Assembly (NCBI GenBank): GCA_016795065.1
Contig: JAEUIU010000038.1
Coordinates: 1 to 64,000 of the forward strand
Length of the DNA stretch: 64,000 nucleotides
Direction: 5' to 3'
DNA from: Phycisphaerae bacterium
GTDB taxonomy: Bacteria; Planctomycetota; Phycisphaerae; Phycisphaerales; SM1A02
A model generated the notes under the pieces. The model searched no databases and was not told the DNA's origin. It was given only the letters and a program-made list of their open reading frames with translations. A program made the position numbers and the translations under genes. Of the stretch, positions 1-7,032 are shown one piece after another. How positions within the stretch are numbered: position 1 is the first letter of the stretch; each line of letters starts with the position of its first letter.

Positions 1-867
1 AACAAACGCGCCATCCAGGCTCAAGGCCGCGAGCGCCTTGCGGCGATCCTCCTTCGACCACGGCTCCAGCAGACCGAGGAGTGCGTCGACACCCACCCGC
101 TCAACCGCGGCGTGGGCCTGGCCGCCGCTCTCAAGAGCACGATCACTCGCCGCCAGCGATTCGTCGACCGAACGGGCCATCTCCTCCGTGTTCGCGGCGT
201 CACCGGCCGTCGCTTCCTTCGACGCCTTCCCATGTTGTCGTTCAAGCGACTCCCGATACGTCGTCCCGGCGCGTCGCAACGCACGGAGATGATTCACCAT
301 GGGTCGCTCGGCGGAGGCGACCGCTTCGTGGGCCTGACGACGAGCGTCGAGCGAAAGGTCCGCACGCAGCACGCGCCGCAGGGCGGCTGCCATCACCGGT
401 GCATTGGTGATGCCGCTCTGCGAATGCCACGCGATCTCTCGGCCGCGAGCAACCGCCGCCGCCGCCTCGCTTGCCGCTGCCGGAACCAGCGCTTCCAAAC
501 TCGTGAGGAACGCAACCTCCGCGGCGTGACATCGCTCCAGATGCGTCTGCCACCGCCGGTGATATTCGCGTACGGCCCGCTCCTCGGCGAAGCCACCTTC
601 CACCGGCTCATAGAGCTTGGCGAGCGGCAAGGCGTCGACGGTGCGACGGGCATCCTCCTCGGCGAGAAAGTCGAGGTAGGCACGTTCGATGATCGGCCAG
701 GCCTGCGTCCACTCCGCACTCTCGTCGACATCGCAGAACATGCGAAGCGATTCTTCGATGTCGGCCCAGCGAAGCGGCGGGCGATCGTAGAAGTCGTCGC
801 CGGCCCACGCTGCTCGCACGGCGAAGCACGCAAGCAGCGCCGCGAGAATCCGAAGGCACGTGATCAT
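1..867 (-). CDS. Secreted helical protein, tandem paralogue 3 (3' part cut by window edge)
   Basis: The frame is open from ATG at 867 to the window edge (289 codons). It starts with a signal peptide (residues 1-22, hydrophobic LRILAALLACFAV, ending AWA). The mature N-terminus has RPPLRW then a DVD..EWTQAWP segment and a FLAEEDARR motif, all matched in the gene just upstream, and near residue 265 QAHAAVERVGVDALL matches QAHAAIERLGVDALL there. It is therefore a clear paralogue of 864-3350. Its ATG overlaps that gene's TGA by 4 nt (ATGA), so the two are probably co-transcribed and translationally coupled. I recognise no enzymatic motif; composition is Ala/Glu/Arg-rich and predicted mostly helical. 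Function unknown, export inferred. Confidence 0.85.
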   Translation of the reverse strand, partial: MITCLRILAALLACFAVRAAWAGDDFYDRPPLRWADIEESLRMFCDVDESAEWTQAWPIIERAYLDFLAEEDARRTVDALPLAKLYEPVEGGFAEERAVREYHRRWQTHLERCHAAEVAFLTSLEALVPAAASEAAAAVARGREIAWHSQSGITNAPVMAAALRRVLRADLSLDARRQAHEAVASAERPMVNHLRALRRAGTTYRESLERQHGKASKEATAGDAANTEEMARSVDESLAASDRALESGGQAHAAVERVGVDALLGLLEPWSKEDRRKALAALSLDGAFV

Positions 868-3350
868 TGGGTCACGCCCCATCTCGGCAAGCGTTGCCGC
901 TCCTCTTCTGTGAGCAGGCGCTCGAGGCGGTGCATGGCAATGATGCTCTCCTGACGCCGGCGCACCTCGAGCCAGTACACCAGAGCGACGGCGTGGATCG
1001 CCCGCGCCGAGGCGAGCGGGCCCGTGCCACCGGTGATGGCGAGTAGGTACCCCGTGCCTCCCTCAACGCGACCGATGGCGTCGGTTCTCTCCATCCATCG
1101 GCGATCCCATGCGGCGTAGAGTTCGACCATACGCGTGGATCGCTCCGCGTCGGAGCCGGTCATGCCCAGTGCGGCGAGGAACGGCCGCTCGAAGCGCGGG
1201 CGTTCGCGGTCGATGCCCGGAAGTGCCGTCTCGAAGCTGGCACGCATGAAGTCGTCGCGCCGACCTTCGGGAAGGGCCGCGAGGATCGTCGCTCGCAAAG
1301 CCGACGCTGCCGCGGCACGTGCCCGCACCTTCGGTTCGAGCCGCGCGAGAATCTCCTCGCGCTCTGCCTTCGCCTGCTCCCACCCGGCAAGCCGCTCGTC
1401 GATCGGCGCCTGATCATTCCACAACGCACTCGCCCGATACATGACGCGTGCGACGGCGACGTGCGCCTCGGCGTCGTCCATGGCCTCACTGGCGACGACG
1501 AGCGCCGCCGCGGACTCTCCGACCGCCCGCTCCACGGCCGCTCGTTCTTCTGGCTTCAACTCCGTGCGCGCGAGCGCCTCCAGCGGATTGCCGCCCCAGT
1601 CGATCCAAGGCACATCCGAGAGTTTCGCCGAACCCGACAGCCCGCGCCCGCGACCGCATGCGGTCCGGCCTTCGGGCAAGCGATGCCGTGCCTCCCACAG
1701 GGTCATCACGGGCTCTGCCGCCGCGCGAGCATCCTCAGGTAGGGCCCGCACGAGGTCGTCGAGGAGCGCGCGGCGCAGCCCCCGCCCGCGCAAGACCAGC
1801 TCCCGACAGCGCTCCACCTCGGCCGCGTCATCCAACGAATCATCCGGCAGCCTTCGACGAAGCTCGTCCTCGGCCGGCTCGACCGTCTCCGTCCACTCCC
1901 GGGCCCTTTTGTCGCGGGCGGTCGCCCAGACAACTTGCACCTCCGCCGCAAGCCCGAGTCGGGAGGCCAGTTCTTCGACGCTCTCCGCCGCGGGGAGCGG
2001 GTGAACGAGCGCCGCCCCTCCATCGATGGCCATGAACCCAAGGGACGACTCAGCCAGCTCTCGCTCCTCGACCTCGGCCGGGGTCGGCTCGTCGACGATC
2101 GCCTCGCCCTTCGCGTTGCGGTCATGACGCGGCCAACGGCTCTCGTTCGGCACCCCTAACGCGGCGCGCACCGACGTGCTCCATCGGCCTAACGCTTCGT
2201 CGAATGCGTCACGTTCCTTCGCCTGTCGCTCGTTGCAGGCGGCGAGCCACGAGGACGGGCGTCCGCCATCGATGTCAAGGAGATGCTGACCCGCGAGCTT
2301 GGCGTCCTCCCGAAGTCCCCTGTACGCGGCGAGCAGCAACTCGTCCGCCTCGGCGCGAAGGCGACGGCTCGCTTCCTCGATCACTGCCTTGGCCGCCTCG
2401 GATGGTGGGTACCTTCGTTCGATCGAAGCGAGCCGCTTCTCGTAGTAGCGCATCGTCGCTGCCAAGCCAAAGGAGAGGCGAGGCGCCCCGAGCGCCGCGA
2501 TCACACGTTGGCGTTCCTCACCCTCGAGTGTGGAGACGACGGTGAGCAACGCATCGACGCCGAGTCGCTCGATGGCCGCGTGCGCCTGGCCGATCGCTGT
2601 CGTCGGAGCGGCCAGTGCCAACGCGGTCGCCTCGCGGATTTCGATTGACCGACGACTTCGGACAGCCTCCTCAAGCGGCGGGTTCGACCGCAGGAGCCAC
2701 GCTTGCTCGGCCAATCCTCGCTCTTCCGCGCGGCGTCTGGCGGCCGATGCGGCGACCAGTGCTCGAACCTGGGGAAGCATCGCTTCTTCGGTTGTACGTA
2801 CCGCCTCGCGCATCCGGTGACGGGCTTCGGGCACGACCTTCGCGTCGAGCAGCGAACCGATCAGCCGAAGCATGTCGGGGGCGTTGCCCGCGCATCGCGG
2901 GATCGCCCGCATCAGTTGGCGCTCGCGAAGGAGCGATCGAGCTGCGTCGGTCGACGATTCGGGAACCAGCCGCTCCAACGAGCGAAGGAAGTCGTCCTCT
3001 GCGAGGTCCGTCCGTTCCAGATGCGCCTCCCAGCGGGCATGGAAGCGCCCGATCTCTTCCACCGTCGCCACGCCGATGATGACCCTCTCGTATGCCTCGG
3101 CGAGGGCTCGCCCGTCCGTCGCCCGGCGACGATCCTCTTCCACAAGGAACTGAAGATACGCGTCCTCCATCTTCGGCCACGCCTGACTCCAGGACGGGGC
3201 GCCATCGACATCGGCGAATCGACGGATGGACCGCTCCACTTCGTCCCAAGTCAGCGGCGGTCGCTGATGGATGTTGTCCTGTGCGCAGGCAATGCTCGCA
3301 TTGAGCGTCACGACCGTCCAGATCAGGAAGCGTGCAAGAACCGTCTTCAC
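864..3350 (-). CDS. Secreted helical protein, tandem paralogue 2 (828 aa)
   Basis: I choose the GTG start at 3350 because a strong Shine-Dalgarno (AAGGAGG) lies about 7 nt upstream and a signal peptide (residues 1-23, hydrophobic core LARFLIWTVVTLNASIA, ending ACA) follows directly. The GTG also overlaps the upstream gene's TGA by 4 nt (GTGA), the same geometry as at its own 3' end. The mature part opens RPPLTWDEVERS and has the DVD..SWSQAWP and EEDRR motifs shared with 1-867. The remainder is a long Ala/Glu/Arg-rich, probably helical chain with no recognised catalytic motif and no second membrane segment. Two TTA leucine codons (2157-2159, 2190-2192) both sit in GTTAG context. Function unknown; extracytoplasmic location inferred. 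Confidence 0.88.
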   Translation of the reverse strand: MKTVLARFLIWTVVTLNASIACAQDNIHQRPPLTWDEVERSIRRFADVDGAPSWSQAWPKMEDAYLQFLVEEDRRRATDGRALAEAYERVIIGVATVEEIGRFHARWEAHLERTDLAEDDFLRSLERLVPESSTDAARSLLRERQLMRAIPRCAGNAPDMLRLIGSLLDAKVVPEARHRMREAVRTTEEAMLPQVRALVAASAARRRAEERGLAEQAWLLRSNPPLEEAVRSRRSIEIREATALALAAPTTAIGQAHAAIERLGVDALLTVVSTLEGEERQRVIAALGAPRLSFGLAATMRYYEKRLASIERRYPPSEAAKAVIEEASRRLRAEADELLLAAYRGLREDAKLAGQHLLDIDGGRPSSWLAACNERQAKERDAFDEALGRWSTSVRAALGVPNESRWPRHDRNAKGEAIVDEPTPAEVEERELAESSLGFMAIDGGAALVHPLPAAESVEELASRLGLAAEVQVVWATARDKRAREWTETVEPAEDELRRRLPDDSLDDAAEVERCRELVLRGRGLRRALLDDLVRALPEDARAAAEPVMTLWEARHRLPEGRTACGRGRGLSGSAKLSDVPWIDWGGNPLEALARTELKPEERAAVERAVGESAAALVVASEAMDDAEAHVAVARVMYRASALWNDQAPIDERLAGWEQAKAEREEILARLEPKVRARAAAASALRATILAALPEGRRDDFMRASFETALPGIDRERPRFERPFLAALGMTGSDAERSTRMVELYAAWDRRWMERTDAIGRVEGGTGYLLAITGGTGPLASARAIHAVALVYWLEVRRRQESIIAMHRLERLLTEEERQRLPRWGVTQ

Positions 3351-5797
3351 TCCCCACCCTCCTTTTCGGCCAACCGTTCCATCGCCGTCAGCCATTGCAG
3401 GCGCGTCTCTTCGCGCACGAAGAGCAACCACTTCCGCCGCTCCCGTCTTCCCCTGTCCGCGTCGGGACCGCTGTCGGTGGCGCCGAGGTCCTCATTCGGC
3501 CACCACAGGTGAAACGCCTCCGGGCGCCAGGCGATGGCCGCGATCTGGTCATCAAGCGACCGGACGTGGGCGTGGATCCTGTCGCGAAGGATGTCGATCG
3601 CGTCAGAGGCATCCGGATGGGCCCTGCGGGCTTCGAATTCCGCTCGCTCAAGGCGATCCAGAAACGCCTTGGTCGAAGGAGCCAGATCCGGAGCGAGCGT
3701 CACGCGTTCCGCGCGACGGATGCGATCGGACACCTCCGTCGGCAGCTCCGCATGAAGCGCCTTGCGAACCCTCTCGCATATCCGGTCGCGCTCGGATGCC
3801 GCCTGGTCGAGCGCATCCGTCGCACCCTCGCGGCATTGGGCCCGGCGCACAGCGACCTCCCCATCGTGCGGTTGTTCCACTTCCTCGGGAGTGCGCGGCC
3901 AGGCGCACGCGTCGATCGCCGCATCGGCTTCCTTCGCGTCGTAGGCTTCCATCGCGGCCAGAAGCTCGGTCGAGAATCGCGCCACGATCGCCCGGGCTTG
4001 GCTCATCGCCCCGGCATCGAGTCCCGATCGTTCGAGCGCCCAGGCGATGTTGCCATGCCGTGCCCGCTGATCTGCGTGGTCAGTCCAAGGCTGAAGCGAA
4101 CGGCTCATCGTGCAATGAACCGGATCTCCCCCGAACGCCTCGACCAGCATGACCTCGACGATTGCCCGTTCACGCTCGTCCGTGGCGATCGAGCGAAGCG
4201 CTTCTCGACATGCGGGCTGAGCCCGGGCGAGGATCGCTCGAGCCGCGTGGATCTCGTCGCGGAGCTTCGTTACCTCCTCAGGCGTCAGGCCCATCGTCGA
4301 CTCGCGGACGGGCGTGATGCTGATCGCGCTGGTTGCGGTCCGAAGCGCTTGCAGTGCGCGCAATGCCGCCCCTGCGGCGTCGGGGCGTTCCAGTCGTCGC
4401 GCAAGCTCGGTCGCCCACTCTTCCGTGATGTCCGGCGGCAGCCACCGATGCGGAAGCGTCGTCTCCCGCTCCGTTTGCCACGATGCAACAAGCGGCCTTC
4501 GCGCGACGGTGCGCTGCGCCGACATCTCGTCCAGCCAAACGAGCTCGTTGGGACGTTGGCCATTCCGGAGATCCGCGCCGACCGGCGCCCCGCCCAACGT
4601 CGACGTGAGTTCCGCAAGAAGGGACCGCGATGTGTTCAACCGGCGTGACCCGATGTCGGACCGCGCCTCGTTCAACCGTTCGCTCCAGTCGGCGAGCCTT
4701 CGTTCGGCGGCGCGCAGCTCCTCAGCGCTGGGTTGTTCGAGATCCGCGTAGACCCCAAGCCACGCCTGAGCCTCGTCGCGGTCGAGCTTTCGATAGGCCT
4801 TCGCCTCGTCGCGATCATGACGAAGAAACTCGGCGACCCGCTCTCGGGCCGCCGCGACTGTTGCCGCGTCGGCAGTGACGCCCTGCCACGGAAGCAAGAA
4901 CTTGGCGGAGAAATTCGTCACGCCGCTGGCATGGTTCCACGCATCAAGAAGGGCGATCCGACCTGGCGGCGACATGCCGGCCAGCAGCCGCTCGAGTGCG
5001 GCATCGACAAGGCCGACGAACCGCACCTCGGACGCGTCCCGAGCGGCAGCGGTGACGAAGCGACGCTCCGTCCATCCGTCGGCCCAGCGCTGACTCACCA
5101 TCGCCTGCTCGGGCGTCTCCTCCGATGGCGGCGGAAACTCCTCGCGATACCGAAGAAAGGCCTTCAATCGCTCGACGGCCAAGTCCGCCCCCTCACGAAG
5201 GTACCTCTGCGCTACGGGAAGGAGCCTCTCCAATTCCTGCGCCATCAGCGCTCGATCAACGGGCTCGGGTCGAAACGCCAGCAACATAGAGAAGGGTGCG
5301 ATCCCTTGCCCGCCACTGGAGAACGCATCCGCCAGACGCAGGCGCAAGGCCAGCGCGGACGCGCTCATCGGGCACGAAGGCACCAGGGCGAGCACGCCCG
5401 CGCCGAGCTCGTCCTCGGCGATCGCCGCCTGATTCTCCGCGCGCCGCAGCGCGATCCACGCACGATCCACATCGTCGATCGTTCCCAGGCCAGCAGAAAC
5501 CTCGCGCGATGTGCGATCAAACTCACTTCGCGCCCGCTCCATCCCGCGCCGGAGGTCGCCCGCTCGTTCCAAGTAGGTTCGGTACGCCTCGTCAAGCGCC
5601 GCCCGATCGGGGCTTTGGTCCGTCGTGACCAGCTCGATCACGCGCAGGAAATCCTCATAACGAACCGCCGGCGGCCAGACCGGATCGGCGGCGACGGCAG
5701 GTCTTCCGACCGCAAGCAAGGTCAGGATGAGCGAAGCCGCCAGCCTGCTCGCCTGGCTCATCCATCGGCGAGCGCCTTGGCGGAGCGAACCTTCCAT
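3347..5797 (-). CDS. Secreted helical protein, tandem paralogue 1 (about 816 aa)
   Basis: First gene of the minus-strand set. Start uncertain: ATG at 5797 gives a basic N-terminus and a signal peptide ending PAVAA near residue 37; ATG at 5761 gives the same signal peptide with a shorter front; neither has a clear Shine-Dalgarno. The frame extends to 5941, but that would add an un-signal-like leader and reach the ychF promoter region. The mature protein begins [16 protein letters not shown], aligns loosely in layout with the two downstream genes, and has the same Glu/Arg/Ala-rich helical character with scattered cysteines and Trp-rich patches. It is the most diverged of the three. No enzyme motif seen. 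Divergent from ychF, so its promoter lies in about 5800-5943. Confidence 0.82.
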
Positions 5798-5943: not shown

Positions 5944-7032
5944 ATGGAATGCGGCATCGTCGGTCTTCCCAACGTCGGCAAGAGCACCCTCTTCAACGCC
6001 CTCACCTGCGCGGGGATCGAGGCCCAGAACTACCCGTTCTGCACGATCGAACCGAACGTCGGCGCGGTCAGCGTGCCCGATCCGCGGCTTGAGATCATCC
6101 GCAAGCACATCGAGTCGCAGAAGATCATCCCGGCCATCCTGAAGCTCGTCGACATCGCGGGTCTCGTGAAGGGTGCGAGCGAGGGCCAGGGGCTCGGTAA
6201 CAAGTTCCTGAGCCACATTCGCGAGGTCGACGCAATCCTCCACGTCGTCCGCTGCTTCGAGGACCCGGACATCGTCCACGTCGACGGCACCGTCGACCCG
6301 ATCCGCGACATCGAGACGATCGAGACCGAGCTCATGCTCGCCGACCTCCAGGTGATCGACGGCGTCCTCGACAAGGCCGCCCGCATCGCCCGCTCGGGCG
6401 ACAAGGAGGCGATCGCCAAGGTCGACGCCCTGAACAAAGTGAAGCCTGCCCTCGAAGCGGGCAGGCCGGTGCGCTCGGTGCAGCTTGACCCCGAGGAGCG
6501 GAAAATCCTGACCTCGGTCGGCATGATCACCGCGAAGCCGGTTCTCTATGTCGCGAACGTCATGGACAACGACCTCGAGGGCAAGGGCCCCTTGGTCCAG
6601 AAGGTGCGTGACTACACCAACACCCACGGCGGCGAGGTGGTCGTGGTCTGCGCGAAGATCGAGAGCGAACTCGCCGAGCTCCCGGAAGCGGACCGGAGGG
6701 AATTGCTCGAGAGCCTGGGCATGACCGAACCGGCCCTCGCCTCGGTTGCCCGCGCCGCGTACCACTTGTTAGGTCTTCAAAGCTACTACACCGCCGGCCC
6801 GAAGGAGATCCGGGCCTGGACCATCCACAAGGGCGACACGGCCCCACAGGCCGCCGGCGTCATCCACACCGACTTCGAGAAGGGCTTCATCCGCGCCGAG
6901 TGCTATTCGGTGGACGACCTCGTGAAGTTCAAGAGCGAAAAGGCCATCCGCGAGGCGGGCAAGATGCGGAGCGAGGGCAAGGGGTACGTGATGCACGATG
7001 CCGACGTGGTGCACTTCCTCTTCAATGTCTGA
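5944..7032 (+). CDS. ychF: Redox-regulated ATPase YchF
   Basis: Obg-family P-loop protein of 362 aa, the usual length. The Walker A/G1 is GLPNVGKST (residues 7-15), the switch region [10 protein letters not shown] lies at 29-38, and G3 is [14 protein letters not shown] from residue 70. The C-terminal third carries the TGS-like end ([15 protein letters not shown]... then [10 protein letters not shown]). In the family the G4 motif is altered so that ATP is preferred over GTP; here the corresponding stretch reads ANVMDND. YchF binds ribosomes and is linked to stress and translation control. A TTA codon in GTTAG context is at 6769. The 3' end overlaps the possible earlier start of the small gene that follows. 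Confidence 0.97.

Follow-up and report, generated by a model that had tools for sequence, protein, structure and literature searches.

Results

The window, by which we mean the whole stretch of 64,000 nucleotides that was analyzed (contig C19 from its first base to 64 kb), opens with three consecutive minus-strand genes (Table 1). Their number, strand and lengths were described in an initial annotation and confirmed in the sequence, as were the 4-nt stop/start overlaps GTGA and ATGA, AAAGGAGG being the stretch 5' of the GTG start of gene 2; the geometry of these overlaps supports the proposed translational coupling. The N-termini of all three proteins, claimed to be signal peptides, also read as such by eye, so that export is predicted. 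The proteins are large, Ala/Arg/Glu-rich and acidic, with a global pI of 5.3-5.9.

Gene 3 continues on contig C68 (5147 bp), whose last 141 bases match positions 1-141 of the window exactly; it is completed there in frame (L004:5147-3402) to a total of 823 codons. The join of C68 to C19 is based on this exact overlap, the intact frame and the full-length homology of the product. Past gene 3 lies a convergent gene, named by eye as an RluA-type pseudouridine synthase. Further copies left of the window, which the initial annotation suggested seeking, were looked for and not found, and a fourth copy left of gene 3 is ruled out since RluA comes next. With RluA beyond gene 3 and the divergent ychF (present in 41/41 genomes searched) before gene 1, the operon therefore consists of exactly three such genes.

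The gap between gene 3 and RluA (L004:3145-3343) contains a palindromic element of ~180 bp with 43-nt arms that are 79-86% complementary. Dozens of diverged copies are scattered over this genome, including tandem ones and others at the ends of contigs, and the element looks like a REP/MITE-type dispersed repeat.

Table 1. Features of the triplet locus (window coordinates)
Feature	Coordinates	Strand	Description	Basis
Gene 1	3347..5797	-	816 codons; predicted exported; most diverged paralogue	ORF
Gene 1, first triple	4586..5677	-	residues 41-404	AF2 helix order, hhalign
Gene 1, second triple	3350..4450	-	residues 450-816, preceded by low-confidence linker 405-449	AF2 helix order, hhalign
GTGA stop/start overlap, gene 1/gene 2	3347..3350	-	4 nt	sequence
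Gene 2	864..3350	-	828 codons; GTG start at 3350, stop TGA ending at 864; predicted exported	ORF
Gene 2, first triple	2130..3263	-	U1 3263-2892, U2 2891-2481, U3 2480-2130	AF2 helix order, hhalign
Gene 2, linker between triples	2013..2129	-	residues 408-446; low confidence	pLDDT <50 at 408-445
Gene 2, second triple	867..2012	-	U4 2012-1608, U5 1607-1221, U6 1220-867	hhalign
ATGA stop/start overlap, gene 2/gene 3	864..867	-	4 nt	sequence
Gene 3	1..867	-	ATG at 867; first 289 codons, open at window edge	
ychF GTPase gene	5944..7032	+	divergent neighbor of gene 1; bounds the operon, outside it	

By blastp, the products of genes 2 and 3 are 33.9% identical over 843 columns (E 5.4e-100), and the four sequence motifs quoted for them were all found in both. 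Their similarity persists past residue 250 (E 4.7e-61 when the first 250 residues are removed), so the supposition that nothing similar lies outside the first 250 residues fails. For gene 1, blastp gave nothing significant against either of them (best E, 0.42), but its product matches a family HMM made from 39 relatives, genes 2 and 3 and the relative from the same-genus genome G001, in one colinear alignment over residues 16-804 (21.8 bits, E 1.2e-6). Against this score, the best of several hundred decoys (shuffles, neighbor proteins, and reversed family or neighbor proteins) reached 9.9 bits. Genes 2 and 3 matched the HMM over their full length before being included in it (E 2e-22 and 5e-15, respectively), and the E value of gene 1 was reached only once they and the G001 relative had joined. 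Therefore, the paralogy of gene 1 is real and visible only via the family profile, in keeping with its earlier description as the more diverged member. In the tree, gene 1 lies outside a group composed of the G001 relative and the gene 2-gene 3 pair (support, 0.98/0.96/1.00), and the four form one clade (0.98), which supports the suggested serial duplication of tandem paralogues; the inferred position of gene 1 is the least certain, owing to long branches.

We show that the window triplet belongs to a family of ~850-aa proteins of the Phycisphaerales, within which it forms a divergent branch known so far from one genus. Gene 2 alone, used as the query, found a relative only in G001, plus a weak match in G021, and a scan of genome contigs with it retrieved nothing. 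A three-sequence profile reached ~850-aa proteins in other genera, and a ten-protein profile matched 145 of the 251 genomes of the order, mostly in one taxonomic family, f1 (full-length proteins), and in families f2-f4, with almost no matches elsewhere in the phylum. Alignments A1 and A3 as queries yielded hundreds of relatives, the majority of ~850 aa. The genome of the window (G000) itself holds about ten family loci, on different contigs, and most of the other paralogues are G000/G001 orthologous pairs in the tree. In G001, RluA and ychF have no member of the family between them; the triplet was therefore either gained in the genome of the window or lost from G001, and the idea of a conserved RluA-triplet-ychF locus was dropped.

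Other members of the family have settled neighborhoods (genes named by eye). A canonical six-unit member occupies a conserved site downstream of rpsG and a ThiF/MoeB-like gene, kept in several genera (L117, L037, L040, L043), and another adjoins queF, with a transketolase gene next in some genera (L118, L036, L041, L042). A copy on contig C3 of the window's own genome (L125:5769-7442; G000:C3:54373-54780) occupies two reading frames and is interrupted by an in-frame TGA; it is likely a frameshifted pseudogene or an assembly error.

Pfam and NCBIfam searches with genes 1-3 returned nothing meaningful, a PDB sequence search with alignment A3 gave chance matches only, and none of the papers searched linked LTXXQ with Phycisphaerae or Planctomycetes. 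The initial annotation had recognized no known domain. Contrary to this, comparison of family profiles shows, at the sequence level, that the family is built of six predicted hairpin units of ~130 residues, arranged as a duplicated triple and homologous to LTXXQ proteins of the Spy/CpxP/ZraP type; we hold this anatomy and ancestry with high confidence. Indeed, the N-terminal and C-terminal halves of the family align by hhalign at 100% probability (E 2e-40, 369 columns), and half-size relatives of about 400-530 aa match both halves (E 2e-29 and 1e-37). When each half was cut into three segments of ~130 columns (N1-N3 and C1-C3), all 15 segment pairs matched each other at 78-99.6% probability, against no more than 3.2% for reversed nulls. 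The same segments matched LTXXQ-type proteins of the same lineage and of other planctomycetes at 96.8% (N1), 96.6% (C3), 93% (C1), 91% (C2), 89.5% (N3) and 30% (N2), with a null of at most 3%. In addition, the curated cut-off of PF07813 is exceeded by two family members in whole-genome searches (G001:C48 and G016:C2), L033 lies just above the Pfam LTXXQ cut-off, and 8 of 38 family members match the Pfam model at E≤0.01.

In the window proteins, the units were located by hhalign against the family segments, the unit limits in gene 2 being our own placement. For gene 2, U1 matched N1 (95.7%), U2 matched C2 (67%) and U3 matched N3 (61%), with reversed nulls of at most 0.6%, and in the second triple U4 matched C1 (38%), U5 matched C2 (97.7%) and U6 matched C3 (96.6%), with nulls of at most 4.9%. 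For gene 1, the matches were V1 to N1 (85%), V2 to C2 (62%), V4 to C1 (42%), and V5 to N3 (55%) or C2 (41%), with V3 and V6 unmatched. Self-repeats were not detectable within the window proteins alone, whose units score at most 6% against each other in the window subfamily; the repeat claim thus rests on the family. Similarly, the homology to LTXXQ proteins holds by a chain, in which window units match family segments and family segments match LTXXQ. No Pfam LTXXQ match at E≤10 was obtained for genes 1 and 2 or for the portion of gene 3 inside the window, and the three proteins, being below the Pfam cut-off, are accordingly called homologous to LTXXQ and not members. The LTxxQ letters, retained as DLTxxQ..LTxEQ in canonical relatives, are lost in genes 1-3: gene 2 ends in LLTEEERQRL, so that its last unit reads LLTEEE and lacks the two LTxxQ motifs.

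AlphaFold (AF2) models of gene 2 (pLDDT 81.8, pTM 0.82) and gene 1 (pLDDT 74.8, pTM 0.73, with family rows in the alignment that may bias the model) share their helix order and a disordered central linker. Both are all-helical, which, together with the signal-peptide-like N-termini, agrees with the earlier description of helical exported proteins. The modeled units have a short-long-long-short order of helices that would fit a four-helix hairpin. Whole-chain fold searches with genes 1 and 2 found no PDB match: Foldseek returned nothing at E≤0.001 for gene 2 (PDB and viral) or gene 1 (PDB), its output consisting of generic long-helix matches to ABC transporters and tape-measure proteins with low TM-scores, and the best Z in the VIA-align fold comparison, 7.2, lies within the noise seen with helical models. 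Since these fold matches are generic and at noise level, we do not read the proteins as relatives of ABC transporters, catenin/vinculin, talin or tape-measure proteins.

Half-size members adjoin gspE-gspF-gspG in loci that were fetched as family matches; NCBIfam supports the identity of these loci as T2SS, with GspG above its cut-off and GspE and GspF as best matches below theirs. A set of loci chosen independently of the protein family was taken from public genomes for the best 80 of 338 GspE matches, of which 2 start too near gspE on their contigs. A family member lies directly upstream of gspE, on the same strand, in 78 of the 78 testable loci; as these come from the closest 80 of 338 matches, the finding applies only to orthologues within the order. 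The upstream copies, in tandem where there are several, number one (54 loci), two (14), three (8), four (1) or six (1). Conserved triplets, which the initial annotation suggested seeking in other Phycisphaerae genomes, do exist in other Phycisphaerales, but their proteins have half the length and are encoded at the type II secretion (T2SS) operon. In families f3 and f4, too, a member is directly upstream of gspE, twice with a 4-nt overlap into it. In two f5 genomes, whose gspE is more distant, a small LTXXQ protein that exceeds the Pfam cut-off is encoded two genes upstream of it; one f6 genome has a sub-threshold LTXXQ protein upstream of gspE. The three-unit, LTXXQ-like, predicted exported proteins (L122, L128, L132, L133, L162, L163, L168-L170, L173-L179, L182-L261) are possibly an undescribed T2SS accessory gene. 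The window triplet is not upstream of gspE: its neighbors are RluA and ychF, and no secretion gene is nearby.

A small helical protein of about 180-260 aa, predicted to be exported and unassigned to a family, precedes the gspE operon in f5/f6 genomes (L271:3229-4450, L273, L280, L277, L287, L291), and in three of them is itself preceded by a single-unit LTXXQ protein.

Discussion

In our analysis, an unnamed trio of genes becomes the divergent tip of a large, uncharacterized family with a testable ancestry. The family probably arose at the T2SS operon, where its three-unit form would have persisted. The likely path, with its direction inferred, would lead from a single unit to a triple unit at the secretion operon and from there to dispersed six-unit copies, which would have spread by duplication as their client ranges diverged. 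The window triplet would be one such diverged six-unit set, with coupled translation keeping its three products in fixed proportion.

As to function, the Spy chain, of 16 kDa and four helices, forms a dimer that acts as an ATP-independent periplasmic chaperone, whose unfolded clients can fold while bound and whose client surface is basic (PMC8144458). We tentatively favor, at somewhat less than even confidence, a role of the triplet proteins as periplasmic, ATP-independent client-binding scaffolds. Each chain would be a single-polypeptide concatemer of Spy-like hairpins retained in the periplasm, and six hairpins per exported chain would offer several adjacent helical client-binding surfaces, as in a multi-site scaffold. 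Unfolded or unassembled envelope or exported proteins would be bound without ATP and held until folding, assembly or hand-over to the export machinery. Counted in its favor are the six-unit, duplicated build of the family, its profile homology to LTXXQ proteins, the helix order of the models and the place of three-unit members next to gspE. Counted against this client-holding role are the missing Pfam LTXXQ match, the lost LTxxQ letters, the loss of mutual resemblance among the six units of the window subfamily, the acidic pI, the lack of a PDB fold match and the distance of the triplet from secretion genes. More speculatively still, a three-hairpin Spy-like holdase (or secretin/pseudopilus assembly factor) may be a constant, so far undescribed T2SS accessory in Phycisphaerales; a doubling to six hairpins would have followed, and then a spread to about ten envelope holdases at scattered loci in each genome, with the triplet as a fast-evolving coupled set that has clients of its own.

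The main rival to client holding, which we consider rather unlikely, is that the family consists of T2SS cargo or surface-structural proteins, long, helical and exported to the surface or the medium. The genes adjoining the T2SS would then encode its main substrates and the dispersed copies further ones, as the invariable position directly upstream of gspE suggests; some ten paralogues per genome and their lineage-specific divergence fit surface proteins, as does the acidic, large, Ala/Arg/Glu-rich character of the products. However, the homology is to periplasmic LTXXQ proteins, and the gspE loci of f5 encode a small single-unit LTXXQ protein that is more helper-like than cargo-like. The same homology could instead point to periplasmic signal or metal modulators of the CpxP/ZraP kind, whose partner would be metal or a sensor kinase and not a client. 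The related Metal_resist model does match T2SS-linked relatives, below its cut-off, but no sensor kinase gene was recognized next to the inspected family loci (neighbors read by eye), and we regard this role as improbable.

Could the likeness to LTXXQ reflect a shared helix-rich composition in an otherwise unrelated helical family? Ala/Arg/Glu-rich helical sequences inflate scores, and the window proteins are below the Pfam cut-off; yet reversed nulls mostly stay at or below 5%, against 60-98% for most cognate pairs, and two family members exceed the curated cut-off, which makes this explanation very improbable. Compatible with client holding, but in our view unlikely, is the proposal of a single exported hetero-oligomer of fixed composition, built from the three window proteins, with its stoichiometry set by translational coupling. 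The 4-nt overlaps and the recurrent tandem triplets of half-size relatives are in its favor, although simple tandem duplication also yields coupling. Moreover, the initial view of the triplet as fixed is at odds with the single, unlinked relative in the same-genus genome and with related arrays of 1 to 6 copies.

Should the secretion-operon form be a dedicated periplasmic helper, it would be a T2SS component that is not known to have been described in proteobacteria, and would hint at the way in which planctomycetes that export much protein manage periplasmic folding. Six concatenated chaperone hairpins in one chain would be unusual. The triplet is of moderate interest in isolation and of more interest as the divergent tip of a T2SS-tied multi-hairpin, Spy-like family.

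Among the systems with which the triplet can be compared is the G001 protein (G001:C42, L011:7282-9672), which is sister to genes 2 and 3 (support, 0.96), full-length and predicted to be exported, but is encoded by a single gene adjoining thiC, with no tandem. The half-size arrays of other Phycisphaerales (e.g. L132, L133, L162, L163) are likewise tandem paralogue triplets of the same family, whereas their proteins have about 400-460 aa and three units, are T2SS linked and are not orthologous to the window genes. In the type II secretion operon, gspE-F-G-H-I-J-K, three-unit relatives stand directly upstream of gspE at every testable locus, unlike the six-unit triplet between RluA and ychF; we know of no T2SS component of this architecture. 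Finally, the family resembles the LTXXQ proteins of PF07813 (Spy, CpxP and ZraP) in being predicted as exported, all-helical hairpins of ~100-130 residues with short-long-long-short helices, in the profile homology of its segments and in having some members above the curated cut-off. It differs in that the window proteins have eroded LTxxQ letters, no Pfam match and an acidic character overall, and in that Spy, a dimer, has one unit, whereas the half-size relatives have three and the triplet family six per chain, with about ten paralogues per genome.
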